A stretch of DNA of 64,000 bases from a virus, in the IMG/VR virus record IMGVR_UViG_3300043449_001497, positions 1 through 64,000 of that record, one strand, 5' to 3'. The position numbers and the translations under genes are program-made. Below are positions 2,204-61,202 of the stretch, piece by piece. The number at the start of each line of letters is the position of its first letter. Within the stretch, counting starts at the first letter, position 1. The notes below the pieces were generated by a model, which was given only the letters and a program-made list of their open reading frames with translations, did not search any database and was not told the origin of the DNA.

Positions 2204-5200
2204 ATGGATCCGAAGACCTACGAACAGGTGAAGGCAATCAACGAGAGCCTCAAGATCCAGCAGGAAGCTGAGGCCAAGGCTCTCGAAGCTGCCCGCAAGC
2301 CTGCTCCCCGTGCCGAGGCGCGTCCGTCTGCTCCCCGCGCCCAGGCTCCGGCAAAGCCCGCTGCCCCGAAGGTTGTGGCTCCTGTCCAGGTAGGCGCTCC
2401 AGTCAAGCAGACTAAGGCCAGTGCTGCTTCCGTCGTAACCCCTCCTGTGACGGATGCAACCCGAAAGTCCAAGGTTGATGACGATCTTCGCCAGGATCTG
2501 AAGCTCGAGGACCTCTACCGGAACGTTGGGATGTTGCCGCCCACCCTCGAGGCCAAGGAGCGTGTCAACGCTTCCATCCGCGCGCTCTCCGCGAAGACGG
2601 GACTTGAGCCCCAGCGCTACAAGGAACTCGCGGCCATCCAGGGGGTCGACCTCAACGACCTTGACCAGAAGGCGCGCGAGGGCATGCCTTTCGAGAACTA
2701 CCGCAAGGCGAAGGAAGGAGCCATCGGCTTTGTGCCCGCGGACAAGCGCGTGGCGATGTTCGAGGACCTCGCGAAGGACTACGAGACCGCGGAGCAGGGC
2801 AAGATTCGCACGGACAAGCGCATCGACCTTGCCGCCGCGAAGGAAGCGCGCGGCACTGTCCCTGGGCTCACCACGGGGTACGTCGTCGGCGGTACTACGT
2901 CCGAGGAGACCCCTGAGGTCGCGAAGAGCGGCGAGCACTACTACGCAGTTGCCGAGGCGTACCTCAAGGCGGTCGACAAGGACCCCGAGGTCGTGAGGTT
3001 GGTCAACCTCTACGGCAACTCCCTCGCCAGCGGGGCGACCCAGAAGTACATCAACGACCGAGCCCAGCAGCTCCTCAAGAACAAGGGCATCACGCCCTCG
3101 TCCCCGGATGCGGAGCGTCTCGCGTCGCTCGCCCGGCGCCAGGCCCTGTACGAGGTTCTCGCGCGCAAGACCGTGGGTCAGTGGACGCCCGGCATCTTCG
3201 TGAAGGATGTCCAGGTCACGGACGACGCCGCCGCGCCGGGCCTCTTCGCGGCGATGGCCCCAAACATCGAGCTCATCGGGTTCAACAGCAAGGGCGATGC
3301 GGTCTTCCGCCAGGAGAGCGCTGCGGGCATGGGCCTGCGTCTGCTCGACGTCGTGGGTGTCGTGCCGATCCCCGGCAAGAAGCTGCCCGTGCCCATCCCC
3401 GGCCAGTCCCTTCTCGCGGGCATGCTCACCAAGGGTGAGAACGAGACCTACTACGAGGCCGCGTCGCGCGGCGCGCAGACGGGCGCCAACTGGCTCGAGG
3501 TCGCGCTGGACGCCACGGAGGGGCAGAGCCTCCCGATGCGAGGAGCGGCAGGGCTCGTGGGCCTCGCAGGCTCGATGGTGCACCCCGACGTGACCGCGGC
3601 TGCGGGCGCTCTCGGGAAGGCGGGCAAGGCGTATCGTGTCGCTCGCATCAACAAGGCCATCGCCCGTGAAGCGGAGCCCATCCTCAAGGAACTCGTCACC
3701 GCGTACCAGGCGCGCAACTTCGACAAGGCGGCGGAGCTCGAGAAGAAGCTGGCGACGAGCCCGACGCTCGGACCCCGCGGTGCCAAGGGGCACGGTGTCG
3801 TCAAGGCGTACAACCGCGGCGACATCGCGTTCGCCCAGGCGCTGGCCTCGATCAACCCCGCGCTCAAGCACCTCGACCCTTTCCTGGTCGACAACCTGGT
3901 GGCTATGGTGGGCCGTCGGGGTGACGACGCGTTGACCGAGTTTGTCTACGAGGCTGCGGGCAAGGGTTCTCCGCACATGCACTTCGGCGCGGCAGCGCCC
4001 GAGATCGCAGAGCGCACCAAGGAGGGTGTGGGTACCTCGTTCGAGACCTACCTCAACTCGGGTAACTTCGACCGTCGCATCGAGCGCATCAAGATGGCGC
4101 GCGATGCCTACGCGAAGACCATCCCCAAGACGGCGGACGAAGCGCTTGCGAAGACGTTCAACGACGCCGTTGAGCGCGTCAAGGGCCGCCTGGTCGACGC
4201 TCGCCTCGCGCAGATCCCCGAAAGCGAGCTGCAAAAGGAGATCCGCCTCCTCCAGCTGATGGAAGAGCATCGTGCTGCGCTCATGGCCGACCCGAAGAGC
4301 TGGATGGACAAGGACGGGCTGTTCCACACTGCGCTCCGCAACGACCCCATCACCGGGGGTGACGCCAACTCGACGTGGCGCCAGCGGACGTACCTCATGG
4401 ACGTCGACAACACGGCTCGGCGCGTCAACGACCTGAAGAGCCGCGACTTCGAGGCGCTCAAGGCTCGTGACCTCCAGATGTTCGACGACGCGCTCGAGGC
4501 GGTCGAGACGAACATCCAGAGTCGCATGATGTCGGCCGAGTCGCTGCGACGCAACCTGGCAGACAAGGCCGAGCTCCGCATCACGCCCATCGACATCCTC
4601 GACAAGGAGATGGCGCCTGGGACGGAACGCCTCTCGCCTTACGCGCAGGCGTCGTTCCTCGTGACGGCGCGTCAGTTCTCGCAGCAAGAGATGGACCGCA
4701 AGTCTCTCTTGCAGGCGTACCAGATGCTGGACAAGGCGTTCGAGGGTGTTGCCTCGCGGCACGACATGTCCCTGGAAGACGTCTGGCGCGACTTCTTCGT
4801 CAAGGTTGAGCAGGGCAAGGTCGAGATGCCGGGCGCGGGTGCGGCCAAGGCTGCGGGTAAGCCCCCGCCGAAGCCCCCGGCCAAGCTGCCCGCTGCACCG
4901 TCGGATGTGCCGAAGCTGGCCAACGTGCCCAACACGCCGGAGGTCAAGGCTGCCGTCGAGAAGGCCGCGAAGAAGGGTGGACGGGCGCGGGCTCCCGCGG
5001 CGATGCATCCTCGCACGGCGGATGTCGTCGCTGGGATTCCCGACGAGTTCAAGACGGACAAGCTGACCCCCGAGGCTGCCTCGAAGGTCATGAGCTTCTT
5101 CAGCAAGCTCGGGCTCGACGCCAAGTTCCCCGAGAAGCTTGGTGGTGTCGACCAGGAGGCGTTTGACGCGGTCCGTGCCTACCTCATGGCGACGGGAGAG

Positions 5201-8200
5201 CTAGAGCTCAAGGGCAAGAAGCTGGTCAAGGTCTTCGAGGAAGTCCCGGCCGCTCCGACCACGCTCGCGGGCCAGGCGGCCAAGGTCGCGCCCGAGGCCC
5301 CGCGAGTCACGATGCAGGGCCTCCAGGACGAACTTGACGACATCAGTGACGACCTCGCCCAGGTCGAGGCCGACCTCGCGACGGCCAGGGAAGACGGAGA
5401 TGACGCGGCTCTAGCGGAGTTGGCGCGCGCCGAGGAGAACCTGCTCGACCGCCGTGACGAGCTCGCGGCGCAGCTCGAGCAGGCGAAGGCAGCTCCGGCC
5501 GAGGCACCCGTGCCCGCGACTGCCCCTACCCTGCCCGACACGGAGATCCAGCAGGCGGTGACCGAGGCCAAGGCCGTCGAGGCCGTGGCGGCCAAGGTGG
5601 ACGAAGTCGCCCAGGAGGTCGCGCCCGCCGAAGCAGTTGTCGAAGCTCCGGCTCCGGCGGCTGTCGAGGCTCCGGTGAAGGCTGCCAAGCCGCCGCGAGG
5701 CAAGAAGGCAAAGGCTGCCGCTGTTCCGGCCACCGCAACCCCCGTCGAGACCGCGACGGTCGACGAGCTCCAGGCTGCCATCAACAACGTCGACGAGAGC
5801 CTGGACGAGGTAGCCGAGACCATCCAGCGCGCCGAGGACGACGCCAACGAGGCCCAGGTGACGTGGCTCCGCGGGGTGGTGGAGAAGAACCTGCGCGAGA
5901 GGAAGGCGGGACTTGAGGCACGCCTCACACGGCTCCAAGCGGCGGCCCCGCGCGATCTACGCGAGCTGCCTCCAGAGGTCCAGGCAAAGGTCGAGGACCT
6001 GGCTGGCGGTGTCTATCAGAACGTCGTCCAAGCTCTGAAGCAGCCGGATGCAGTCCGAAAGTCCCCCCAGGCGTACGCAGACTCGTACAAGGACGTTCTC
6101 GCTGAGATGTGGGACAGTCCGTACGACTTCGAGCGAGCATGGCCCGCCATGCGCGACCGCGTCGAGCTTTCGGCCGCCAACGCCCTGGACGCGGTTGAAG
6201 TCCCCGCGACGATGGAGAACCTGGGCAACCGCGCACTCTGGAAGAACGTCAAGGCCAAGGGCCGCATCGGCGCGTCGACTGGGATGCTCGAGGCTCGGGT
6301 AGGGACCGTAGAGTTCCGCATTTCGACTGTCCCCGCCGCGAAGGAAGGCAATCCGCCCGTCTTCCAAGTCATGGCGCGCGTCGGAGATGAGTTCGAGAAT
6401 CTCGGACCGAAGGCGGGCTACGCCACGCTCGAGGATGCGCTGCGCGCACTGACCCCCGCGGGCGGCAAGCCTGCCCCGCTCCGCTCGAAGATTGACTCCG
6501 TTATCAGCAGCGGCGTTCGTAAGGCGAGTATCCCGAAGAAGGGAGCTAAGCAAGCCAAGGTCGTCGAAGAAGTTGCGGAGGAAGCGCTTGACGAGGCCGT
6601 GCCAGAGCAGGTCGCGCGTCTCGAGGAAGCTGCTCCTGGCGCAGAGGAAGCGCCCGCGGTTGTGCCTGCACCGACGATGACAGGCGAGCAGTATCGTGCC
6701 AAGGCCGTGGAAGAGCTGGGCAAGATCACGCACTCTGTCGTGAAGGCCGACGGCACCAAGGTCTACGGTGTGGTCGAGGGCGACAACTTCGTGCCCAAGT
6801 ACACGCTCTCGACGTCCGAGATGCGCGACCCCACGGACGCTCTCTACTTCAAGGCGTCTCGCGGCAGCACGGCGATTGACGAGCCCGTTGCTCTGGCCAA
6901 GTCCGGCGCGCGTCCTGAGTCGCTCCAGGCGACGGTCAAGAAGATTGAGAAGCTCCCGGAAAACGCGCTCTACCAGCGTGGAGAGGTCCTCGTCGAAGCC
7001 GACAAGCTTGTGGGTCGCTTGGTCGAGGTAGAGAAGGGGAAGATCGAGTTCCTGACTCCTGAGCAGATCAAGGACCTCAAGAACCAGAACGACCCGACGG
7101 CCATCGTCACGCTCTTCCGCGGCGTGGCTGACCCCACGACGCTGCTCCACGAGGGCGCGCACTACATCCGTCGCATGGGCCTGGCTGCCGAGGACATGGA
7201 CGCCGTCACGAAGTGGATCCGTTCGCAGGGTGTCGACGTCACGCACAAGTTCGGTAACTTCGACGGTACGGCCGAAGCGGTCGAGCAGGCGGAGGAGCTG
7301 TTTGCCAGGGCATTCGAGCAGTACCTGCTCAAGGGCGAGGCCCCGGAACCCCAGCTCACCTCTCTCTTCCAGAAGGTGAAGGAGGTCTTCGAGAAGGTCT
7401 ACCGCACCATCTCGACCAGCCCGCTGGGCAAGGACATCGACCCTGATGTGAAGGCCGTCTTCGACCGCCTGTTCAAGTCCGTGCCGCAGAAGAAGCCGGA
7501 GTCGACCTTCGACCTCCTCATGCGCCACACCTTCAACAACAAGGGCATGGAGCAAGAGGGCAGCCTCACGGCGCTTGCTCGCGAGGCGAAGCGCCGTGGC
7601 ATTCCAGGTGCCACGGTGGAAGACCTCACCAAGCTCATGGTGGACGCGGGCAACAAGTACGGAGAGGGCTTCCTCGAGCAGAACGTCATCGAGTTCCCCG
7701 TCCCCGTGCTCGGCAAGGAGAAGTGGACAGGAGCCGACGTTCTCGAGCTCGACCGTCGCATCCAGATGCGCCGTAACGACTTGGAGCTGGCTCCTCTGAA
7801 GCAGGCGCTCTTCGGAGAGCCGGAAGAGGAGAAGGCGACCGAGGCAATCTTCGCGGCGCTTGAGAAGCCCAAGGGTGTGGAAGAGGGGGCGTTCTCGGCA
7901 ACGAGCCGCACGCTGGCGCGTGGGCTCACGCACACGGTCATCGGTGGTGATCTTACGGCTGAGCGCGTGATGCGGAACCTGCCTCCGGAGGTGCGCCGCA
8001 GCATCAACACCGCCTCGAACGTCATCGAGAACGGCATCGGTGACGCCATCACCGTGCTCAGCCAGGCGATCCGTGACGGCGACATGGACTTCATGTACCG
8101 CTACCTCTCGGGCGAGACGGGGATGGCCTACAAGACGGGCCGCCGTGTCATCTCCTCGGGTCATGAGTTCATCGGCGGGTTCCTCGACCTGTACAAGAAC

Positions 8201-11107
8201 GCGGGCCTCTCGCTCACAGGGGAGCAGCGAGCGCTGCTTCAGAAGTTCGCTCAGGCGGTCAACACCCGCCCGAACATCAACAATCTGAGGCTGCCCCAGA
8301 CCCGCTCCGAGGCCCTCGCAAGCCTCGTCTTCCCGGACCTGGATGCGATCCGCGAAGCGCAGGCCGCGGAAGACCTGGGGAAGGCGCCGATCCGTGCGGC
8401 GATGCAACAGGAAGCCAAGTCTATGGCCGAGGCACTCGAAAAGTTCCGCGAGCTGAAGGGCAGCGATGACCAGGGCGTTGGCAGCATGCTCGCCAAGGCC
8501 ATGCGTGGTGCGACGGAAGAGGGATCTGAGATCAGCATCAACGAGTTCCGGTTCACGGAGACCCTGCTCTACTTGGCGGGCATCACCCAGCGCGACGGGA
8601 AGTTCTTCGTCGAGGTGGGAGAGGACTACTCCAAGGCCGGACTCAAGAACGCCGCCGAGATCCTGCTTCGGGAGGCCCAGGACATCTACGGCACCGCGGA
8701 AGACCAGCTCTTCGCTCGGCGCGTCGCCATCCTGGTGGGCGCCTACGGTTCCGCGTCTCGCGCCAAGGCTGAGCTCGCGGAGCTGGGCCTGGTGCTCACG
8801 GCGGAAGAGAGGACTGCGTACAATAACTGGGCGCTAGGCTACGGGGTCACTCCTGAGATGCGGCCCCGCATCGAGCAAGTGATGCGGAAGCTCGGTGCGA
8901 ACACCACGTTCGAGCCCGACACCATCCTCGGAGCCGACGTCTACATTCCGAAGCAGGCCCGCGAGCGCATTGCGGACGCACTCAAGAAGGCTCAGTTCAG
9001 CGAGCAGAAGCTCACGAAGATGGGCGACATCTACCAGTCCATCTTCGCCTTCATGAAGAAGCGCATGACCCGCGGCAACTTCCTACTGCGCCAGCGCTAC
9101 TTCATGGTCAACACCATCGACCACTTCTTCCAGATGTCCCTCGTCGTCGGGTACGCGCCCGCGTTCCAGTCGATGTCGCGCATCGCTCTCCAGAACGCGC
9201 TTACGTCTCCGTTCACGGGGCAAGCTCTCGAGATGGGCGTGCGCGCGGTCAATCGTCTCGTTCCAGGCGCAAAGATCCCGCCCGACGTTGTGGAGAAGAT
9301 CCGCGACTTCTTCAGCCGGGGCGGCGACAAGACGGCCGGGTTCCTTCGCGAGATGATGGGAGGCTCGAAGTACCGCGTCGAGGTCAACCATGTCCTGGAG
9401 GGTCGCAACACCCCCATCGTGATCGGCGGACGAGTCACCACGGGCAAGCGGCTCCGCGAGATCTTCGTCGCAGAAGGCATCCTCGAGAGCTACAACACCC
9501 GACGCCTCGGCGCGGTTCTCCGCAAGGAAGGTACGGCGTTCATCAGCGACGGTGACGGCATCATCGAGGCGGGCATCAATGACCGCTCGCTGGGCGGCAA
9601 CGTGACCACTGCCTGGGCGCGGGTGAAGGACGCTGCAATCGACCTCTCGACCGACGTGGTCGACGACATCGGAGACGCCTGGGCCGAGCGCGAGCGCGTG
9701 GGCGCTGCCGTGACCCTCATCGAGAACGGCTACGAGCCGCGCGTGGCGTGCCGCCTCACCATCGACGCCCTCTACGACTACGCCCAGTCGATGACGAAGA
9801 TGGACCGCAACTGGTTCGTCGGCCTGCTGTTCCCCTTCTGGGCCTTCCAGAAGAACGCGAACCAGCAGTTCATCAACGTCATCGCGACCCCCTACGGCGC
9901 GTACCGGATGATGGTCATGAAGCGGTTCCGGGACCGTAGCTCTGAGCTTCTCACGGAGCTCTACTACGACGAGGTCGGCGGCGAGTTGGGCCTCGACGTG
10001 AACTCGATGCCCCAGGACATGCAGGACATGTACTACGCGGTCATGACCAAGGCGCACGAGGTGTACGGGGACGAGATCCCCGAAAACGCCAAGATGGCGC
10101 TCCGCATGGGGCTAACGGGCCGCGCTTCCGAGGTGCTCGACGGCAAGTACTACGAGCTCGATGCTGACCTGATCCGCATGCTGCGGTCGGGTGGTATCGG
10201 CGGTGTCGGCGGTGCAGGCATGAGCGACTACCTGATGCCGACCCCCAGCAAGTCCATCTTGCCTTCGTACATGCGCGAGCGACCCGGTGTGTTCCTGGCA
10301 CCCCGCCGTGACGCCGCGGTTCGTCTCTACTCGGGTCTTCGCGCGAAGAACGACGAGATGTTCTACCTCATGCTGCCCCCGGCGAGCTTCGAGGATGCGT
10401 TCAAGCACACGGCGACGGTCATGTCGACGGCGCTCCTCATGGGGGCCAACCTGACTGCGATGACCCCGGCGGGCCCGCTCCTGGGTCTCGAGGCGCGCGG
10501 TCTCGAGGGCACCAAGATCGCGGCAGCCATCCGGCCTGTTCTCGACCTGGAGCGCTCCCCCATCGCCGGGCCTGTCATCGGCATGTACGCGGAGCGAGGC
10601 TACCCCCAGAAGCTCCACCCGCTCGTGGCGTCGTTCATCATGAACACCACCGATGCTCCCATCTTGCGCGTTCCCGCGGTCAACGACCCGTTTGAAGGTG
10701 ACAACTTCATGCTCGAGATGCAGAAGCTCACCGAGGAAGGGAAGGAGGCTGACATCGCGCAGATCCTTGGCGCCGACTATGTCCGCACGGTACAGGAGCT
10801 CAACAGCAAGGAGCTGGATCCCAACGAGATCTCGACGGTCCGCGACGAGCACTTCTACCTGCCGCCGGGTGGATACTCCATCGCCTTCGAGAACGCGCCG
10901 CTGCTCGGAGAGCTCAACAAGGAGCTCCTGCTCAAGTACGGAAAGACCGCACAGGAGAAGGCCGCTTCCTCGGATACGGCGAGCCTGGGCAACCTGCTCT
11001 ACATTCTCCGCAACGCCACCGGACTCGAGGTTGCATCGGTCTCTGCTTCTCGGACGGCTCAACAGGAAGAGCCTGTCTTCTACACCAAGTCTCGCAAGCC
11101 CTTCTAG
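2204..11107 (+). CDS. Giant polyvalent-type internal virion protein with zincin motif
   Basis: At 2967 residues this is by far the largest gene. The N-terminus and residues near 880-930 and 1050-1200 are Ala/Pro/Glu/Lys-rich linkers. A zinc-metallopeptidase signature HEGAH lies at about residues 1649-1653 (context TTLLHEGAHYIRR). The C-terminal third has aromatic, membrane-active-looking segments, including PFWAFQKNANQQF. Known giant phage proteins ('polyvalent' or large ejection proteins) share this plan: a long helical scaffold with embedded enzyme domains, packaged in the capsid and injected with DNA. The start at 2204 is chosen because a -10 box lies at 2179 and GAGGG lies just upstream; an in-frame ATG at 2150 would add 18 residues. 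Peptidase activity and ejection are inferred. Confidence 0.75.
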   Translation: MDPKTYEQVKAINESLKIQQEAEAKALEAARKPAPRAEARPSAPRAQAPAKPAAPKVVAPVQVGAPVKQTKASAASVVTPPVTDATRKSKVDDDLRQDLKLEDLYRNVGMLPPTLEAKERVNASIRALSAKTGLEPQRYKELAAIQGVDLNDLDQKAREGMPFENYRKAKEGAIGFVPADKRVAMFEDLAKDYETAEQGKIRTDKRIDLAAAKEARGTVPGLTTGYVVGGTTSEETPEVAKSGEHYYAVAEAYLKAVDKDPEVVRLVNLYGNSLASGATQKYINDRAQQLLKNKGITPSSPDAERLASLARRQALYEVLARKTVGQWTPGIFVKDVQVTDDAAAPGLFAAMAPNIELIGFNSKGDAVFRQESAAGMGLRLLDVVGVVPIPGKKLPVPIPGQSLLAGMLTKGENETYYEAASRGAQTGANWLEVALDATEGQSLPMRGAAGLVGLAGSMVHPDVTAAAGALGKAGKAYRVARINKAIAREAEPILKELVTAYQARNFDKAAELEKKLATSPTLGPRGAKGHGVVKAYNRGDIAFAQALASINPALKHLDPFLVDNLVAMVGRRGDDALTEFVYEAAGKGSPHMHFGAAAPEIAERTKEGVGTSFETYLNSGNFDRRIERIKMARDAYAKTIPKTADEALAKTFNDAVERVKGRLVDARLAQIPESELQKEIRLLQLMEEHRAALMADPKSWMDKDGLFHTALRNDPITGGDANSTWRQRTYLMDVDNTARRVNDLKSRDFEALKARDLQMFDDALEAVETNIQSRMMSAESLRRNLADKAELRITPIDILDKEMAPGTERLSPYAQASFLVTARQFSQQEMDRKSLLQAYQMLDKAFEGVASRHDMSLEDVWRDFFVKVEQGKVEMPGAGAAKAAGKPPPKPPAKLPAAPSDVPKLANVPNTPEVKAAVEKAAKKGGRARAPAAMHPRTADVVAGIPDEFKTDKLTPEAASKVMSFFSKLGLDAKFPEKLGGVDQEAFDAVRAYLMATGELELKGKKLVKVFEEVPAAPTTLAGQAAKVAPEAPRVTMQGLQDELDDISDDLAQVEADLATAREDGDDAALAELARAEENLLDRRDELAAQLEQAKAAPAEAPVPATAPTLPDTEIQQAVTEAKAVEAVAAKVDEVAQEVAPAEAVVEAPAPAAVEAPVKAAKPPRGKKAKAAAVPATATPVETATVDELQAAINNVDESLDEVAETIQRAEDDANEAQVTWLRGVVEKNLRERKAGLEARLTRLQAAAPRDLRELPPEVQAKVEDLAGGVYQNVVQALKQPDAVRKSPQAYADSYKDVLAEMWDSPYDFERAWPAMRDRVELSAANALDAVEVPATMENLGNRALWKNVKAKGRIGASTGMLEARVGTVEFRISTVPAAKEGNPPVFQVMARVGDEFENLGPKAGYATLEDALRALTPAGGKPAPLRSKIDSVISSGVRKASIPKKGAKQAKVVEEVAEEALDEAVPEQVARLEEAAPGAEEAPAVVPAPTMTGEQYRAKAVEELGKITHSVVKADGTKVYGVVEGDNFVPKYTLSTSEMRDPTDALYFKASRGSTAIDEPVALAKSGARPESLQATVKKIEKLPENALYQRGEVLVEADKLVGRLVEVEKGKIEFLTPEQIKDLKNQNDPTAIVTLFRGVADPTTLLHEGAHYIRRMGLAAEDMDAVTKWIRSQGVDVTHKFGNFDGTAEAVEQAEELFARAFEQYLLKGEAPEPQLTSLFQKVKEVFEKVYRTISTSPLGKDIDPDVKAVFDRLFKSVPQKKPESTFDLLMRHTFNNKGMEQEGSLTALAREAKRRGIPGATVEDLTKLMVDAGNKYGEGFLEQNVIEFPVPVLGKEKWTGADVLELDRRIQMRRNDLELAPLKQALFGEPEEEKATEAIFAALEKPKGVEEGAFSATSRTLARGLTHTVIGGDLTAERVMRNLPPEVRRSINTASNVIENGIGDAITVLSQAIRDGDMDFMYRYLSGETGMAYKTGRRVISSGHEFIGGFLDLYKNAGLSLTGEQRALLQKFAQAVNTRPNINNLRLPQTRSEALASLVFPDLDAIREAQAAEDLGKAPIRAAMQQEAKSMAEALEKFRELKGSDDQGVGSMLAKAMRGATEEGSEISINEFRFTETLLYLAGITQRDGKFFVEVGEDYSKAGLKNAAEILLREAQDIYGTAEDQLFARRVAILVGAYGSASRAKAELAELGLVLTAEERTAYNNWALGYGVTPEMRPRIEQVMRKLGANTTFEPDTILGADVYIPKQARERIADALKKAQFSEQKLTKMGDIYQSIFAFMKKRMTRGNFLLRQRYFMVNTIDHFFQMSLVVGYAPAFQSMSRIALQNALTSPFTGQALEMGVRAVNRLVPGAKIPPDVVEKIRDFFSRGGDKTAGFLREMMGGSKYRVEVNHVLEGRNTPIVIGGRVTTGKRLREIFVAEGILESYNTRRLGAVLRKEGTAFISDGDGIIEAGINDRSLGGNVTTAWARVKDAAIDLSTDVVDDIGDAWAERERVGAAVTLIENGYEPRVACRLTIDALYDYAQSMTKMDRNWFVGLLFPFWAFQKNANQQFINVIATPYGAYRMMVMKRFRDRSSELLTELYYDEVGGELGLDVNSMPQDMQDMYYAVMTKAHEVYGDEIPENAKMALRMGLTGRASEVLDGKYYELDADLIRMLRSGGIGGVGGAGMSDYLMPTPSKSILPSYMRERPGVFLAPRRDAAVRLYSGLRAKNDEMFYLMLPPASFEDAFKHTATVMSTALLMGANLTAMTPAGPLLGLEARGLEGTKIAAAIRPVLDLERSPIAGPVIGMYAERGYPQKLHPLVASFIMNTTDAPILRVPAVNDPFEGDNFMLEMQKLTEEGKEADIAQILGADYVRTVQELNSKELDPNEISTVRDEHFYLPPGGYSIAFENAPLLGELNKELLLKYGKTAQEKAASSDTASLGNLLYILRNATGLEVASVSASRTAQQEEPVFYTKSRKPF

Positions 11108-24210: not shown

Positions 24211-24645
24211 ATGAACCCTCAACTCTCTGCCATGCTCCACCTCTGGGCGAAGCTCCGCATGGCACATCACCTGTACTGGACGCTGCACTGGCAGGCCAAG
24301 GGTCCGTCGTTCCAGGGCGACCACACGTTGTTCGGCGACCTGTACGAGGCCCGCATCCACGAGATTGACGGCCTGGCTGAGCTCATCGCGGGCCACTTCG
24401 GCTCGGCGCAGCTCGACCCGGTTCGCGCCTGGGCGATGGCCCAGGAGTGCATCACGTCTGCGGTCTCGGCTCCGACCCCGGTGGCCATTGCGGAAATGGT
24501 CCTCGAGGCGGTCGAGGAGGCGAACGAGGCGTGCATGGAGGGCAAGTTCCCCGCAGGCACGACCAACTTCATCTCTGACGTGGGGACGCACCACCTCAAG
24601 GACCTGTACAAGCTCCAGCAGCGCTTCGGCGCTCTTTCCAAGTAG
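24211..24645 (+). CDS. Dps-like ferritin-fold protein
   Basis: The protein has 144 residues. The segment LHWQAKGPSFQGDHTLFG followed by the EIDGLAELI helix matches the Dps ferroxidase region. H26, H38, D53 and E57 have exactly the spacing (12, 15, 4) of the iron ligands H51, H63, D78 and E82 of Escherichia coli Dps. Known Dps proteins form 12-subunit cages that oxidise and store iron and protect DNA. The basic N-terminal tail used for DNA binding in E. coli is missing here. It lies between a terminator and the DNA polymerase. Iron storage is a strong inference; a DNA-protection or virion role is open. Confidence 0.7.
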   Translation: MNPQLSAMLHLWAKLRMAHHLYWTLHWQAKGPSFQGDHTLFGDLYEARIHEIDGLAELIAGHFGSAQLDPVRAWAMAQECITSAVSAPTPVAIAEMVLEAVEEANEACMEGKFPAGTTNFISDVGTHHLKDLYKLQQRFGALSK

Positions 24646-28166: not shown

Positions 28167-28191
28167 CGTGGTGGTAAGGTAGTGGTATGGT
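28163..28191 (+). promoter_or_regulatory. Promoter of the small-gene/thyX operon
   Basis: TTGACG (28163-28168), a 17-base spacer and TATGGT (28186-28191). The TGA stop of the polymerase gene is the second to fourth base of this -35 box. Transcription would start near 28198. Confidence 0.65.
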
Positions 28192-41555: not shown

Positions 41556-41861
41556 TCAGGACTCCCACGGCCAGCCGTCGCGGTCGACGGGCTCGAGGCC
41601 AGCGGCGCGGGCCTGCTCGCGCGCCTCGAACTCGTCCTCGGTGTGCGACGGACTGTCTTCCACGTCGGCGTCACCGACGGCTGCGAGGGCGATGCGCTCG
41701 GCCACGATGTCGGCCGCCTTGTCGAACGCAGCAGCGTGGCCGCGGACGAAGTCGACGCCGACGCCAGCGCCGGGGCCTGACGACCATTCGGTGGCGAGGC
41801 GGCGTTGGTCCTCGGCGATCTTGCGGAACAGGGTTTCGAGGAAGGTGAGGTCGTCGTTCAT
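41556..41861 (-). CDS. Hypothetical acidic helical protein, first gene of its operon
   Basis: A 101-residue acidic protein. A helix with FLETLFRKIAEDQRRLATEW is followed by VDFVRGHAAAFDKAADIVAERI and an acidic C-terminus (EDSPSHTEDEFEAREQA). The RGHxxAF..A pattern is common in short phage helical proteins. It begins 28 bases after a predicted promoter -10 and leads the run of genes down to 39197. Confidence 0.55.
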   Translation of the reverse strand: MNDDLTFLETLFRKIAEDQRRLATEWSSGPGAGVGVDFVRGHAAAFDKAADIVAERIALAAVGDADVEDSPSHTEDEFEAREQARAAGLEPVDRDGWPWES

Positions 41862-41888: not shown

Positions 41889-41916
41889 GTCTTACCACGG
41901 TGGTTGACGGAGTCAA
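41889..41916 (-). promoter_or_regulatory. Promoter of the 41.9-39.2 kb minus-strand operon
   Basis: TTGACT (41911-41916), a 16-base spacer and TGGTAAGAC, an extended -10 with TAAGAC at 41889-41894. It precedes the gene starting at 41861. Confidence 0.45.
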
Positions 41917-46425: not shown

Positions 46426-47028
46426 TCACTCGTCGTGCGCCGCCTTGAGAATGCCGCGCACCCTGTCCACGACCTCGCTCAGGGGGAGGTCGAGGGCCAA
46501 CTCGTCGACGTACTCGTACGCTCCGCCATCGTACCGCAGGGTCACGATGTCAGCGGTGAGCGCGTTGCGCTCGTCGAGGTCGATGCTCACCCGCAGTTCG
46601 CAGGTCTCGAACCCCCACAGGACGCGCACCCGACCGTCACCGTAGTGCGTGCAGGGGATGCCCGCACGCTGCATCTCCACGGCCAGCGTGGCACCCGCAC
46701 TGTGACAGAGCACGTCGTGCTTCTCCGCCTCGCTGATGGCCTCACGGAGGGCCGCGGCGGGCTCGAGTTCCGGGATGGGGAACTCACGCAGGTAGCGGGC
46801 GAGGAACACCTCGACCTCTTCCATCCAATCGTGCGTCTCGCCCCACTCGACGTCGGCGTACACCCGCTGGAAGGCGAGCGTGCACCCGACCACGTAGTCG
46901 GCGAACTCCACGACCGGGAGGTCGACGCCCGATGCGCTCAGCATCCCCCACAGTTCGCGGGAGAACGCCGCCGCCGTCGCGCCATCCACGGGACGCACCC
47001 ACGCCGGGGTGATGTCGTTCGTCTTCAT
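46426..47028 (-). CDS. Hypothetical acidic protein
   Basis: A 200-residue protein starting MKTNDITPAWVRPVDGATAA. Residues 50-110 are an acidic helix-rich region (VEWGETHDWMEEVEVFLARY). The C-terminal half is beta-rich with an acidic pattern (CELRVSIDLDERNALTADIV). Two cysteines are near GIPCTHYGDGRV. An AGGAGG-type ribosome-binding site and a promoter about 110 bases upstream support it. No family recognised. Confidence 0.6.
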   Translation of the reverse strand: MKTNDITPAWVRPVDGATAAAFSRELWGMLSASGVDLPVVEFADYVVGCTLAFQRVYADVEWGETHDWMEEVEVFLARYLREFPIPELEPAAALREAISEAEKHDVLCHSAGATLAVEMQRAGIPCTHYGDGRVRVLWGFETCELRVSIDLDERNALTADIVTLRYDGGAYEYVDELALDLPLSEVVDRVRGILKAAHDE

Positions 47029-47107
47029 GCTTGCCTCCGTGGCAGACTCTGAGCGCTCGCCGCCGGGCCTGCCAGCCGGACGGCACGCCGCACCACCGGG
47101 GTACAGG

Positions 47108-47137
47108 ATTGTACCACCGTGGCACGCAATGAAGCAA
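47108..47137 (-). promoter_or_regulatory. Promoter of the 46426 gene
   Basis: TTGCTT (47132-47137), an 18-base spacer and TACAAT (47108-47113) on the minus strand. Transcription would start near 47100. Confidence 0.5.
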
Positions 47138-47492: not shown

Positions 47493-48314
47493 TCACACGA
47501 CGGGCGCACCCGTCTGAGCGTCGCGGACGAACCCGCTACGGTCCGTGCGCGCCTTGCCCTTGGCACGGAGCAACACCACGTGACCGGGAGGGTCAAGGTG
47601 GCGCAGGTCCGTCTCGTCGCCATCCACAGTCGGATAGCCCATGAACGTCGACGGCACAGGCTTGCCCGCCTTCACGTTCACGACGACGGCGACGTTGCCG
47701 CCAGCCGCCAGCACGCTGCGAGCGATGGCCTCGCGACCCGTGCCGCGGTCGAGGCTGTACGTGTACCGCACGCCGTCGACCGTGCCCGCACGCCCACGTG
47801 CCGGGTCTTTCGTGTAGTCGTACCGCACGGCCTGAGACGGCACGCGCAAGCCGGGGAACACGGACTCCCAATGAACGTCGCTCGTACCGTTGAGCCGGAA
47901 CGAGACCGATAGCTCGAGGCTATCGGCCCACGCTGCGACGTGCGCCATGTCCCGTTCGAGGTGAGCGCGGAAGGCTTCCGGCTCGCGGTCGAACATGCGC
48001 GTCCGCTTGTAGCGGCCGTGCTGCACGTTGTTGGCGAACGCGCGGCCTGCGTAGCTGGACATCGGGATGCCCCCACGGCCAGCCGTGTTGAGACACGACG
48101 CAGCGCACGCACCAGCCCACGGGCACAGGTTGCCCAGCCCAGGCACCTCGCCGTTCAACACGGCGAGCCGGGCGTACTCACGCGCCGGGAGCAGATGCAG
48201 GACCGCCGTCACCTCGCCGCGCTTCCCACCCTTGGCAACCTTGGGGTTGTCCAGCGTGAGCAGCTTGAGCTTGGACTTACAGGCGTTGAACCCTGCGAAC
48301 TCGTACGTCTTCAT
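47493..48314 (-). CDS. Conserved phage protein with CxxxxxCxxxC signature (Gp88/DUF7227-like)
   Basis: A 273-residue protein containing LCPWAGACAASCLNTAGRGG, then RYKRTRMFDREPEAF, FRLNGTSDVHWES, RYDYTKDP and a late 'TVDGDETDLRHLDP' stretch. This order (Cys signature, R-T-x-x-F, RLNGTSD, YDYTK, DGDxxDxRxLDP) recurs in a family of phage proteins of unknown biochemistry. The three closely spaced cysteines could hold a metal or Fe-S cluster. A strong GGAGGA precedes 48314. A long structured leader lies upstream. Confidence 0.6.
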   Translation of the reverse strand: MKTYEFAGFNACKSKLKLLTLDNPKVAKGGKRGEVTAVLHLLPAREYARLAVLNGEVPGLGNLCPWAGACAASCLNTAGRGGIPMSSYAGRAFANNVQHGRYKRTRMFDREPEAFRAHLERDMAHVAAWADSLELSVSFRLNGTSDVHWESVFPGLRVPSQAVRYDYTKDPARGRAGTVDGVRYTYSLDRGTGREAIARSVLAAGGNVAVVVNVKAGKPVPSTFMGYPTVDGDETDLRHLDPPGHVVLLRAKGKARTDRSGFVRDAQTGAPVV

Positions 48315-48796: not shown

Positions 48797-48825
48797 AGCA
48801 TACCATGACGGTATGAACCCGTCAA
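48797..48825 (-). promoter_or_regulatory. Sigma-70-type promoter for the structured leader
   Basis: TTGACG (48820-48825), a 17-base spacer and TATGCT (48797-48802) on the minus strand. Confidence 0.65.
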
Positions 48826-48917
48826 GGGACGCTAGCGGTCTAAGCTCTGAAAGAGCGGGGCCGGGGCCCCTGAGGGCCTGAGCCCCCGTGGTCGGCGTTT
48901 CCGCTTCCCACGCTTTC

Positions 48918-48946
48918 AATATGCCCCGTTCCTACCACGGCGTCAA
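48918..48946 (-). promoter_or_regulatory. Second upstream promoter (module copy A)
   Basis: TTGACG (48941-48946), a 17-base spacer ending GGGG and CATATT (48918-48923). It belongs to the repeated promoter-leader family also seen at 50188 and 51379. Confidence 0.6.
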
Positions 48947-49258
48947 GGTCTCACGGGCTGCCCGTCACACGGGCGCGCGACGCACGCCTGACCCGGCCGC
49001 GGGCCCGCTGGCGGCCGCTGCCCCTCAGGCGGCGGGCCGCCCTCTGGAGCCGCCGCACTCCACCCCTCCCTCCTCCACCCTCTCCGGCTGTTCCACCCTC
49101 TCCGGCTATACAGGGTCCCCTGACGGGGACCATTGAAGAGACGCACTGAGAAGCCCCAGGAGCTCGACGCCAGGGGGAGGGGCTACCTGGGTAGCACCCT
49201 GTCCTAGATCGTTGCTCCTGGGGCTTCCCAGTGCGGTTCCTGCGGGGTCCAATGGAAA
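48947..49258. other. Gene-free region upstream of module copy A
   Basis: No gene is supported. It contains two copies of CCACCCTCTCCGG (49075-49087 and 49093-49105, 18 bases apart) and a TGAC-loop hairpin GGTCCCC/GGGGACC (49114-49131). It also holds a 19-base inverted repeat with one mismatch (49144-49162 with 49215-49233). The first two elements recur with the same spacing at 50326-50381. Confidence 0.55.
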
Positions 49259-50044: not shown

Positions 50045-50187
50045 GCTTGACTCCACTAGAGTGAGGGGGAGACACGCTAGGCGACGCTTGCCGCACGCGG
50101 GGCGTCGTCACTACCATGCTATGGGGTTGTGAAAGAGCGGCGGGACCGAGGCCCCCCGTCAGGTCCGCTTCCGTTCCTGACATCTAC
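50045..50187 (-). promoter_or_regulatory. Leader of the 50044 gene (module copy B)
   Basis: No other gene is supported. The minus-strand leader carries a GGAACGGAAGCGGA element and CCGCTCTTTCACAACCCCATA, close copies of which occur in the leaders at 51244-51378 and, diverged, 48700-48910. A probable shared regulatory or RNA element. Confidence 0.5.
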
Positions 50188-50216
50188 AGTATGCCCCGTC
50201 TAGTGCATGGTGTCAA
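50188..50216 (-). promoter_or_regulatory. Early promoter (module copy B)
   Basis: TTGACA (50211-50216), a 17-base spacer ending GACGGGG and CATACT (50188-50193) on the minus strand. Almost identical in spacer layout to 51379-51407. Confidence 0.7.
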
Positions 50217-50425
50217 GGTGGGAACGCTACAGGCCCGGATAGGGCGCGTGACGGCCCGGCGCACGGGTCCGGCCCCGCTTGCGCGCGGGCTCGCTCATGC
50301 GACGCCCCGCCCTCCAGCCGTGTCGCCACCCTCTCCGGTACTACCACCCTCTCCGGCATACAGAGCCCCCTGACGGGGGCTGCTAGAAGAAGAGCTCGAG
50401 ACCAGGACCGAGCGGACATGAGAAA
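50217..50425. other. Gene-free upstream region of module copy B
   Basis: Two CCACCCTCTCCGG copies (50326-50338 and 50344-50356, 18 bases apart) and a TGAC-loop hairpin AGCCCCC/GGGGGCT (50364-50381) repeat the arrangement found upstream of 48918. GCGACGCCCCGCCCT at 50299-50313 recurs at 51501-51515. No gene is seen. Confidence 0.55.
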
Positions 50426-51243: not shown

Positions 51244-51378
51244 GCTTCATCTCCGAGAGTAGGGTGAGGGTCGCACGGCGTACCTGCTAGGGCAGGGGCC
51301 GGGTGACCGAACCAGCGTATGGGGTTGTCAGAGAGCGGGGCGGGGAGGGCGTTTCCGTCGTTCCCTTTCCGTGCATAC

Positions 51379-51407
51379 AGTATGCCCTGTCTAGTGACAG
51401 GTGTCAA
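51379..51407 (-). promoter_or_regulatory. Early promoter (module copy C)
   Basis: TTGACA (51402-51407), a 17-base spacer ending GACAGGG and CATACT (51379-51384). The sequence TGACA-CC-TGTCA around the -35 is a short palindrome. Confidence 0.7.
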
Positions 51408-51693
51408 GCGTCAATGCGATAGCCCCCGAATAGACATGGCTCGCGGGCGCGACGCCCTTCCGACGACGCCGACGCCCCCGTGCGACCGCGCTTCTCGCTG
51501 GCGACGCCCCGCCCTATAGTAGTGGCGCCACCAACATCATCAACAACCCCCTACACCCCAACAACAACCATCATGGGACCCAACTCCCCCTGTCCTCTTC
51601 CTGGCGAGTAAAAAATCCCAAATCCCCATACCACCGGGGTACGCCCACTACGTGGCCGCACCATGCGTGGATGACGCGAGGTCCGCGATGGCG
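51408..51693. other. Divergent gene-free region with C/A-rich stretch
   Basis: No gene is supported. 51501-51515 repeats the upstream element of module copy B. The palindrome GTGGCGCCAC at about 51522-51531 is followed to about 51576 by plus-strand DNA made almost only of C, A and T. It then turns AT-richer (GTAAAAAATCCCAAATCCCC). It separates the early minus-strand block from the plus-strand regulator gene. Confidence 0.45.
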
Positions 51694-51722
51694 TGGCCAC
51701 TCACAGGGACCGACGTTATACC
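51694..51722 (+). promoter_or_regulatory. Promoter of the alpha-CTD-like gene
   Basis: TGGCCA (51694-51699), a 17-base spacer and TATACC (51717-51722); weaker than the early promoters. It starts transcription near 51729. Confidence 0.45.
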
Positions 51723-51745
51723 CCCTTGGTCTACCAGGAGCCCCC

Positions 51746-52804
51746 ATGAACAACGACACGAAGACCCAGGACCTCCCACTTGCCCTCCGAACCCGCAACG
51801 CCCTCCTCAAGGCGGGCCTCACGACCTGGGGACAGGTCAAGAGCATCGAGCTCACGAACGTGGAGGGCCTCGGTGCCCGAAGCATCGACGCCATCCAGGC
51901 CCTCTGGAGCGAGGAAGAAGGCCTTCCGCGACTGGTGCCGATGCCGGAGGAGGCGGAAACGCCCGAGGAGACCATCGCTCGAGGCCAGAAGCGGCACGAA
52001 GTCACGTCGATGATCGACCACGCGATGCGCGGCGGGCTCGACCGGATGACCGGAGACGTCGAGAGCCTCGAGGAACGGCGTCACCTGGACGAGGTGAAGG
52101 CCATCCACAAGCGCCAGTTCGACGCCGCGGCCGAGAAGGAGCTCAGTCGGAGCTTCGCGATGGCCGGAACGGGCAGTTTTGGGGACCCGGACGCCGAAAT
52201 CCGTCGTCGCGGCGAGGCGTTTCGCGCCCAGGGCGGCTCGGTTGTGGCCGGAGACGGTCGCGGACTGCTTGCTCTTCGGCTCGAAGCCGATGTACAGGCA
52301 CGAGTCTCGGCTCTTATACCCCTTATCAAGGCCCTCCCGCATGTCAAGGAGTTGGGCGTAGATGTTTCAGCGGAGATCGTGGGTCGAATGGCGCTGATTC
52401 GGGGCCTGGATGCCCTCGAGAGGGCCCACGGAGGGTCGAAATCGACCTCCAAGACCTCGGAAAACGGCGAAAACCGCGCAACCGCACCCGAAAACGCCGA
52501 CGCGCCGCTCCCGACGGGCGATGAAGAGGTCTACGACACCCCTGAAGGGTGGACGAAGGTCGGTTTGGGCGAGACGATCCCGGTTCCGGAGGCCGTTTTG
52601 CACGATTACTACACCCAGAACGGCTGGGTGCGGTACTGGGGCAAGGCCAACGACCAGGTGATCTACTTCTACTGGTCTCCGGAGCGCCGTTTGCAGGACC
52701 TCAAGCCCTTCCCAGGCACCGACAAGAGCGGTCGGTCGGTCGCAGTGCAGGAAACGCCCTGGGGACCGGGCCATGTGGTCCCCTCGAGGTGGGCGAACAG
52801 CTGA
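51746..52804 (+). CDS. Phage protein with RNA-polymerase alpha-CTD-like N-terminus
   Basis: A 352-residue protein. Residues 10-53 (LPLALRTRNALLKAGLTTWG, then the segment ending VEGLGARSIDAIQAL) align with the C-terminal domain of bacterial RNA polymerase alpha. R15, N18, G43, R45 and S46 correspond to E. coli R265, N268, G296, K298 and S299, the UP-element DNA contacts. The middle is helical and charged; the last 90 residues hold a Trp/Tyr-rich domain (WVRYWGKANDQVIYFYWS). AGGAG precedes 51746. A lone gene between its own promoter and a terminator, next to the head cluster: a likely transcription regulator. Confidence 0.6.
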   Translation: MNNDTKTQDLPLALRTRNALLKAGLTTWGQVKSIELTNVEGLGARSIDAIQALWSEEEGLPRLVPMPEEAETPEETIARGQKRHEVTSMIDHAMRGGLDRMTGDVESLEERRHLDEVKAIHKRQFDAAAEKELSRSFAMAGTGSFGDPDAEIRRRGEAFRAQGGSVVAGDGRGLLALRLEADVQARVSALIPLIKALPHVKELGVDVSAEIVGRMALIRGLDALERAHGGSKSTSKTSENGENRATAPENADAPLPTGDEEVYDTPEGWTKVGLGETIPVPEAVLHDYYTQNGWVRYWGKANDQVIYFYWSPERRLQDLKPFPGTDKSGRSVAVQETPWGPGHVVPSRWANS

Positions 52805-52811
52805 ACGACGA

Positions 52812-52845
52812 GGGCCAGGAGTGAGGCGAACCCCGCTCCTGGCCC
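52812..52845. terminator. Bidirectional terminator
   Basis: A perfect 10-base stem GGGCCAGGAG/CTCCTGGCCC with a 14-base loop lies between the convergent 51746 and 52867 genes. Confidence 0.7.
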
Positions 52846-61179: not shown

Positions 61180-61202
61180 CGAGATAACCACAGCGGTATC
61201 TA
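61174..61202 (+). promoter_or_regulatory. Promoter of the major capsid gene
   Basis: TTGCAC (61174-61179), a 17-base spacer and TATCTA (61197-61202). Transcription would begin near 61209. Confidence 0.6.

Follow-up and report, generated by a model that had tools for sequence, protein, structure and literature searches.

What does a phage do with a protein that begins like the C-terminal domain of the bacterial RNA polymerase alpha subunit (alpha-CTD)? The gene that raises this question (bp 51746-52804, plus strand) encodes 352 aa and lies in a 64,000-nucleotide stretch of DNA, the whole of which is referred to here as the window and which was taken from a virus record of 72,743 bases (a 72.7-kb contig). 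The gene was identified as an open reading frame with its translation and is syntenic in 13/13 close relatives. It starts with the ATG at 51746 and its stop codon occupies bp 52802-52804. This start was accepted because of an AGGAG sequence upstream (51736-51740, 5 nt before the ATG) and because of the family alignment. The protein is laid out as an alpha-CTD-like domain, a linker, a putative ribbon-helix-helix (RHH)-like segment and a conserved C-terminal domain.

In the initial annotation, the gene was placed between its own promoter and a bidirectional terminator. A terminator-like element is seen by sequence and folding: a 10 bp GC hairpin (52812-52845) with the appearance of a two-way terminator, lacking a long T run, lies between the gene and its convergent neighbor, which encodes 167 aa, and a comparable hairpin is found in all 10 relatives folded (11 members in all). 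The putative promoter read from the sequence (TGGCCA-17-TATACC, 51694-51722, plus strand) is plausible, but it is weak by consensus (8/12) and scored under the threshold of the promoter scan. The portal/terminase block adjoins, at the same place in close relatives.

Other genes of the contig encode a DNA polymerase, a primase/helicase, a Sak4-like annealing protein, a thymidylate synthase, a portal, a large terminase and a head protein. No sigma-factor region 4 was found in the contig, nor was a T7-type polymerase, the search for the latter being silent on all of its controls as well. Because neither was found, it is likely that the phage uses the host polymerase. A 2967-aa protein (window 2204-11107) was considered as a virion polymerase and rejected, its relatives in isolated phages being only lysis/lysin-like or hypothetical patches; these matches are confined to residues ~1600-1785 and are annotated as lysis protein, lysin or hypothetical. 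Searches of cultured phages, plasmids and cellular genomes identified no homologue of the 352-aa protein, apart from a weak and uninformative Variovorax plasmid match to its middle segment. As isolated phages have no homologue of either this protein or the head protein of the contig, the lineage is known from environmental sequence only.

The alpha-CTD-like N-terminal domain

Judged by profile searches and a predicted structure, the N-terminus is homologous to the RNA polymerase alpha-CTD. The domain (residues 4-57, bp 51755-51916, plus strand) was delimited using Pfam, a PDB profile search, AlphaFold2 with Foldseek, and hhalign. RNA_pol_A_CTD (PF03118) is the sole Pfam family matched (residues 4-52), with an E-value of 0.0096 (16.1 bits) for the whole protein and 4.4e-4 (20.4 bits) for the first 71 residues. 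The domain is therefore treated as a relative of PF03118 and not as a curated member, because its score is below the gathering score (the curated cut-off) of 23.8 bits even though no other family was matched. When all six frames of the 72.7-kb contig were compared with PF03118, the single match was at this gene (E-value: 5e-5). The model is matched by 5/7 family members, while HHH_5 is matched weakly by one. The N-terminal profile of the family ranked alpha-CTDs first in the PDB (1doq, E-value: 0.0055).

AlphaFold2 predicts residues 1-50 with a pLDDT of ~90 and helices at residues 14-22, 28-33 and 44-57, the confident part of the model spanning residues 1-56. The top 29 Foldseek matches in the PDB are all alpha-CTDs, the best being 7vpd_S (55 columns, 1.2 A, TM 0.82 of target); because alpha-CTDs are over-represented in the PDB, this ranking weighs less than the rmsd and the agreement in sequence. 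Generic helix-hairpin-helix (HhH) domains (RuvA, RadA, ligase, HHH_5) fit worse than alpha-CTD in Pfam, in the PDB and with hhalign, which gave a probability of 95.5% over 52 columns against an alpha-CTD set drawn from the search outputs, compared with 66.6% over 37 columns for a small, hand-entered set of generic HhH domains. The alpha-CTD-like N-terminus proposed in the initial annotation is thus the best or only match in Pfam (sub-threshold), PDB profile and fold searches, and profile and structure comparison alike prefer it to a generic HhH domain.

Five DNA-contact positions of E. coli alpha had been equated with residues of the protein, and all five equivalences are correct in this copy. 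R265, N268 and G296 correspond to R15, N18 and G43 throughout the family, in which R15, N18, G41 and G43 are invariant. The equivalents of K298 and S299 are R45 and S46 in this copy alone, with T/G in most relatives and K/G in the relative L046. In alpha, contact with DNA depends critically on R265 (PMC2988021). Also invariant are D9 (alpha D259) and the D-L-x-L-x-x-R-x-x-N-x-L pattern as a whole, which is the part that distinguishes alpha-CTD from other HhH domains; the equivalent of alpha E261 is an invariant Pro. The loop before the hairpin, at the activator-contact (287) determinant of E. coli alpha, differs by up to ~20 residues among members. Because R15, N18 and G43 are kept while R45/S46 and the activator-contact loop vary, the retained surface is the DNA-facing one, and that in part only. 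The remainder of the protein had been described as unlike RNA polymerase, and this holds: outside the CTD, neither Pfam nor NCBIfam gave a match, the alpha N-terminal assembly domain of RpoA included, and the RpoA equivalog models reach 10-14 bits where their cut-offs are >200.

The shared core in long and short forms

The domain had been viewed as a detached alpha-CTD. It is better described as an addition to a two-part core, which is found without it in ~40 distant members retrieved by using first the large terminase and afterwards the family alignment as query. These proteins lack both the alpha-CTD and the linker, begin just before residue 175 and keep the core alone; the stretches retrieved around them showed no alpha-CTD encoded by a gene of its own. 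In a tree of the shared core, the presence of alpha-CTD changes once (support 100/99); the tree is unrooted, so this change may be either a gain or a loss of the domain. The best match in a viral structure library, the unnamed 188-aa viral protein A0A516MA85 (BFVD/UniProt; E-value: 2e-13, 34% identity over 185 columns), is probably a short-form member, as it is too small to hold alpha-CTD plus core.

The part common to all members starts with a strand-helix-helix segment (residues 173-229, bp 52262-52432, plus strand), delimited by alignment, that resembles an RHH by eye and has the pattern xLxLxLE, helix, T/SxxxVAR-AL-RGL helix. From this pattern, it is a putative RHH. An RHH was not recognized there by Pfam or the PDB profile search, and the AlphaFold2 model of the segment, which is of low confidence, shows none; hhalign gave 18.6% against an RHH set (small and partly entered by hand) and 0.2-0.5% against mismatched sets. 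Among the strand positions that an RHH would turn toward DNA are Glu (E180, which does not vary within the alpha-CTD clade) and Asp, which is unusual for an RHH reading head, and the outward strand residues vary among members while the palindrome described below stays constant.

Alignments show that the most conserved domain is the ~90-residue C-terminal one (residues 262-352, bp 52529-52801, plus strand), with the pattern GW..RYWG..IYFYW..WGPGH.VP. It has no match in Pfam, PHROGs or the PDB, including the PDB by fold, and PHROGs, NCBIfam and Pfam gave nothing usable for any part outside the alpha-CTD. Fold-search matches for the C-terminal half were discarded as meaningless, the model there being poor.

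A palindrome before the gene and at other promoters

A 13-bp palindrome, TACC-N5-GGTA, is found before this gene family in most long and many short members. In the window, the copy TACC-ACCGG-GGTA (51629-51641) was located by upstream comparison and by a matrix scan, and is kept in most relatives. Upstream comparison also located a second copy with one mismatch, TACC-CCCTT-GGTC (51719-51731), that overlaps the putative -10; the long clade often has a second copy near the -10 region. A conserved A/T tract adjoins the upstream palindrome, also in members without alpha-CTD. The upstream layout of the short forms L117-L149 is GGGACCC, A/T tract, TACC-N5-GGTA and a TTGCCA-17-promoter, and the divergent members L136, L137 and L157 have a TTGACA-N3-TGTCAA-like palindrome instead, as if the operator had changed.

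For the scan, the relatives' own upstream sites were turned into a symmetric weight matrix, to which this genome contributed nothing. Its top 7 matches in the contig are all intergenic (48801, 61186, 51629 before the gene itself, 41893, 64527 beyond the window, 47112 and 28175), the intergenic share of the contig being 12.7% according to a simple in-house gene caller, not a published one. The promoter of the major head gene, TTGCAC-N6-site-TATCTA, contains AACC-ACAGC-GGTA (61186-61198, plus strand), and the palindrome is at the same place in relatives G002 and G003. Another site (48801-48813, minus strand) lies in the promoter TTGACG-N6-site-TATGCT of a leftward gene group. This group includes the gene (47493-48314) for a GP88 family protein (Gene product 88, PF17338, function not known), downstream of the palindrome-bearing promoter. 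On the same strand, the matrix identified a site 38 nt before gene 41556-41861 (41893-41905, with TTGACT 11 nt upstream) and one before gene 46426-47028 (47112-47124), which is accompanied by a second, one-mismatch site (47091-47103). A degenerate copy (28175-28187, plus strand) is situated in the promoter TTGACG-N6-site-TATGGT. The geometry common to several of these sites is TTGACN - 6 nt - TACCNNNNNGG - TATNNT, in which the palindrome occupies the spacer and extends into the -10.

The palindrome likewise occurs at promoters between genes in five alpha-CTD-form relatives. Over six alpha-CTD-bearing genomes, with the regions upstream of the gene itself removed, 41/60 top-10 matches are intergenic; 200 palindrome-preserving permutations of the matrix gave a mean of 8.4 of 60 (sd 5.1), and the largest of them also gave 41, which may represent a near-identical column swap. 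TTG triplets of the -35 type cluster 10-12 nt before the palindrome. The same matrix shows no enrichment in the short-form genomes G007 and G008, while 5/10 top matches are intergenic in the short-form genome G010, so the link between palindrome and alpha-CTD is not strict.

Other repeats are present at leftward promoters in the window. A 33-nt leftward promoter unit occurs three times (48915-48947, 50185-50217 and 51376-51408), with TTGACA-17-CATACT in 2/3 copies; these units belong to a larger, ~1.2-kb duplicated arrangement of paired repeats 1170-1200 nt apart, before small leftward genes. A perfect palindrome, CTGTC-TAGT-GACAG (51387-51400), lies inside the leftward promoter at 51407-51379. 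CTGTC-N4-GACAG was rejected as an operator, since its frequency in the window does not exceed chance expectation.

Self-regulators and their regulons are usually recognized by a site that is conserved before a regulator-like gene and recurs in further promoters. We tentatively propose, with doubt slightly outweighing belief, that the gene product is a phage DNA-binding regulator that controls its own gene and a set of phage promoters through TACC-N5-GGTA. Self-regulation is suggested because the conserved palindrome precedes this very gene, also in the distant short forms. The core, with its putative dimeric RHH-like segment and conserved C-terminal domain, is common to the whole uncultured-phage lineage, and in one clade, which includes the phage of the window, the alpha-CTD-homologous helix-hairpin-helix domain is joined to its N-terminus. 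The protein would regulate its own gene and, in the alpha-CTD clade, also the promoters of the head gene, the GP88 group and others, presumably by binding the palindrome itself. Bound between -35 and -10, or over the -10, it would most simply block the host polymerase, so we infer that it acts as a repressor. P22 Arc represses in this way, excluding polymerase from an operator between -35 and -10. The alpha-CTD-like module would serve as added DNA grip, most likely by touching the minor groove or the backbone alongside the operator, R15 and N18 acting like R265 and N268.

One argument against this regulator is that another phage regulator could be the binder of the palindrome. The alpha-CTD-like domain would then be a generic, non-specific DNA clamp on a protein with a role in replication, packaging or the virion. 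We consider this somewhat unlikely: the gene adjoins portal, terminase and head genes, the C-terminal domain is without a known regulatory relative, a PHROG "DNA binding protein" is encoded elsewhere in the window (24211-24645), and other phages join alpha-CTD modules to unrelated parts, such as the HNH-like part of Marley1013 gp51. However, a clamp leaves aside two observations. Even the distant short forms retain the palindrome upstream of precisely this gene, as self-regulation predicts, and the gene is separate from the head operon, flanked by an upstream region of its own and the terminator-like hairpin. A further possibility, which we regard as rather unlikely, is that the phage lineage captured an alpha-CTD and fused it to a site-specific promoter-binding protein. 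The resulting regulator would be positioned within phage promoters, its module engaging either the DNA bound there or, through sigma region 4 or alpha, the holoenzyme of the host. If this were true, a part of the polymerase would have become a component of a phage transcription switch.

The initial annotation had suggested that the alpha-CTD recruits or redirects host polymerase to phage promoters via AT-rich upstream DNA, in which case it might touch sigma or alpha. The invariance of the DNA-facing R15, N18 and G43 and of D9, the finding of no polymerase or sigma gene in the contig and the conserved A/T tract beside the palindrome of the gene would all fit such recruitment. However, recruitment to UP elements is without support because the palindrome promoters have no marked AT-rich element (AT 24-41% over the 70 nt upstream of the -35, compared with ~35% for the genome). 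Many of the palindromes are also located within the core promoter, so that a protein bound to them would get in the way of polymerase. In addition, the A/T tract is shared with members that have no alpha-CTD, the equivalent of E261 has become Pro and a loop that differs in length among members takes up the region of the 287 determinant. We think recruitment quite improbable; the sequence points instead to a palindromic operator that is often inside the core promoter. It is highly improbable that the module is a decoy that lowers host transcription by competing with host alpha-CTDs for UP elements or host activators: R15 is conserved and alpha-CTD is a known phage target, its R265 being acted upon by T4 through Alt/ModA (PMC2988021), but the activator-contact region is not conserved and a decoy would have no need of the conserved core and promoter palindromes.

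If the proposed regulator is real, the palindrome predicts which promoters it targets, that of the main head gene among them, in phages without a cultured relative, which makes the reading testable. With its long and its short forms, the family offers a natural comparison with and without the alpha-CTD.

Comparison with known systems

The N-terminal domain shares with bacterial alpha-CTD (PF03118) the order of its helices, the residues D9-L10-x-L12-x-x-R15-x-x-N18-x-L20 and a GxG hairpin, which reads IPGIGERS in 1doq (RNA polymerase alpha) and IPGVGATG in relatives of the 352-aa protein. Unlike bacterial alpha, the phage protein carries this domain N-terminally, has no alpha N-terminal assembly domain and scores below the curated cut-off; the K298/S299 positions are not conserved, and the phage family has a variable insertion between helix 2 and the hairpin.

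Detached phage alpha-CTDs are already known at the level of annotation, because such modules are carried by Bacillus phage Goe8 (c00050, "RNA polymerase subunit alpha"; L016, 1959-2591; module 55.6% identical to the B. subtilis domain), Microbacterium phage Mazun (gp26; L017, 2785-3210), Mycobacterium phage Marley1013 (gp51; L018, 2983-3465) and the uncultured-phage protein A0A6J5QDR9 (UniProt), which is named "RNA polymerase, alpha subunit, C-terminal". Many other matches (H1-H13 and H17-H21) are to public "phage" records that seem to be bacterial chromosome contigs with rpoA, through contamination or mislabelling. Like the domain described here, the Goe8, Mazun, Marley1013 and A0A6J5QDR9 modules are phage-encoded and detached from polymerase. 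In contrast, the module is C-terminal in Goe8 and Mazun and has an HNH-like partner in Marley1013, and none of these proteins has the core of the 352-aa protein. Alpha-CTD modules thus recur in unrelated phage proteins, and current annotation mostly leaves them unnamed. No description of a phage-encoded alpha-CTD regulator was found in the open-access literature; the joining of alpha-CTD to this core, its clade-wide presence or absence and the promoter palindrome appear to be new.

The proposed likeness to P22 Arc-type RHH repressors lies in the small strand-helix-helix unit and in a palindromic operator between -35 and -10. The 352-aa protein differs from them in that its RHH is putative, its strand residues are atypical and it has two extra domains. 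Phages usually control transcription with sigma factors, anti-sigma proteins, polymerases of their own, polymerase-modifying enzymes or small repressors. If a protein resembling a repressor has indeed captured an alpha-CTD, its design would differ from these routes.
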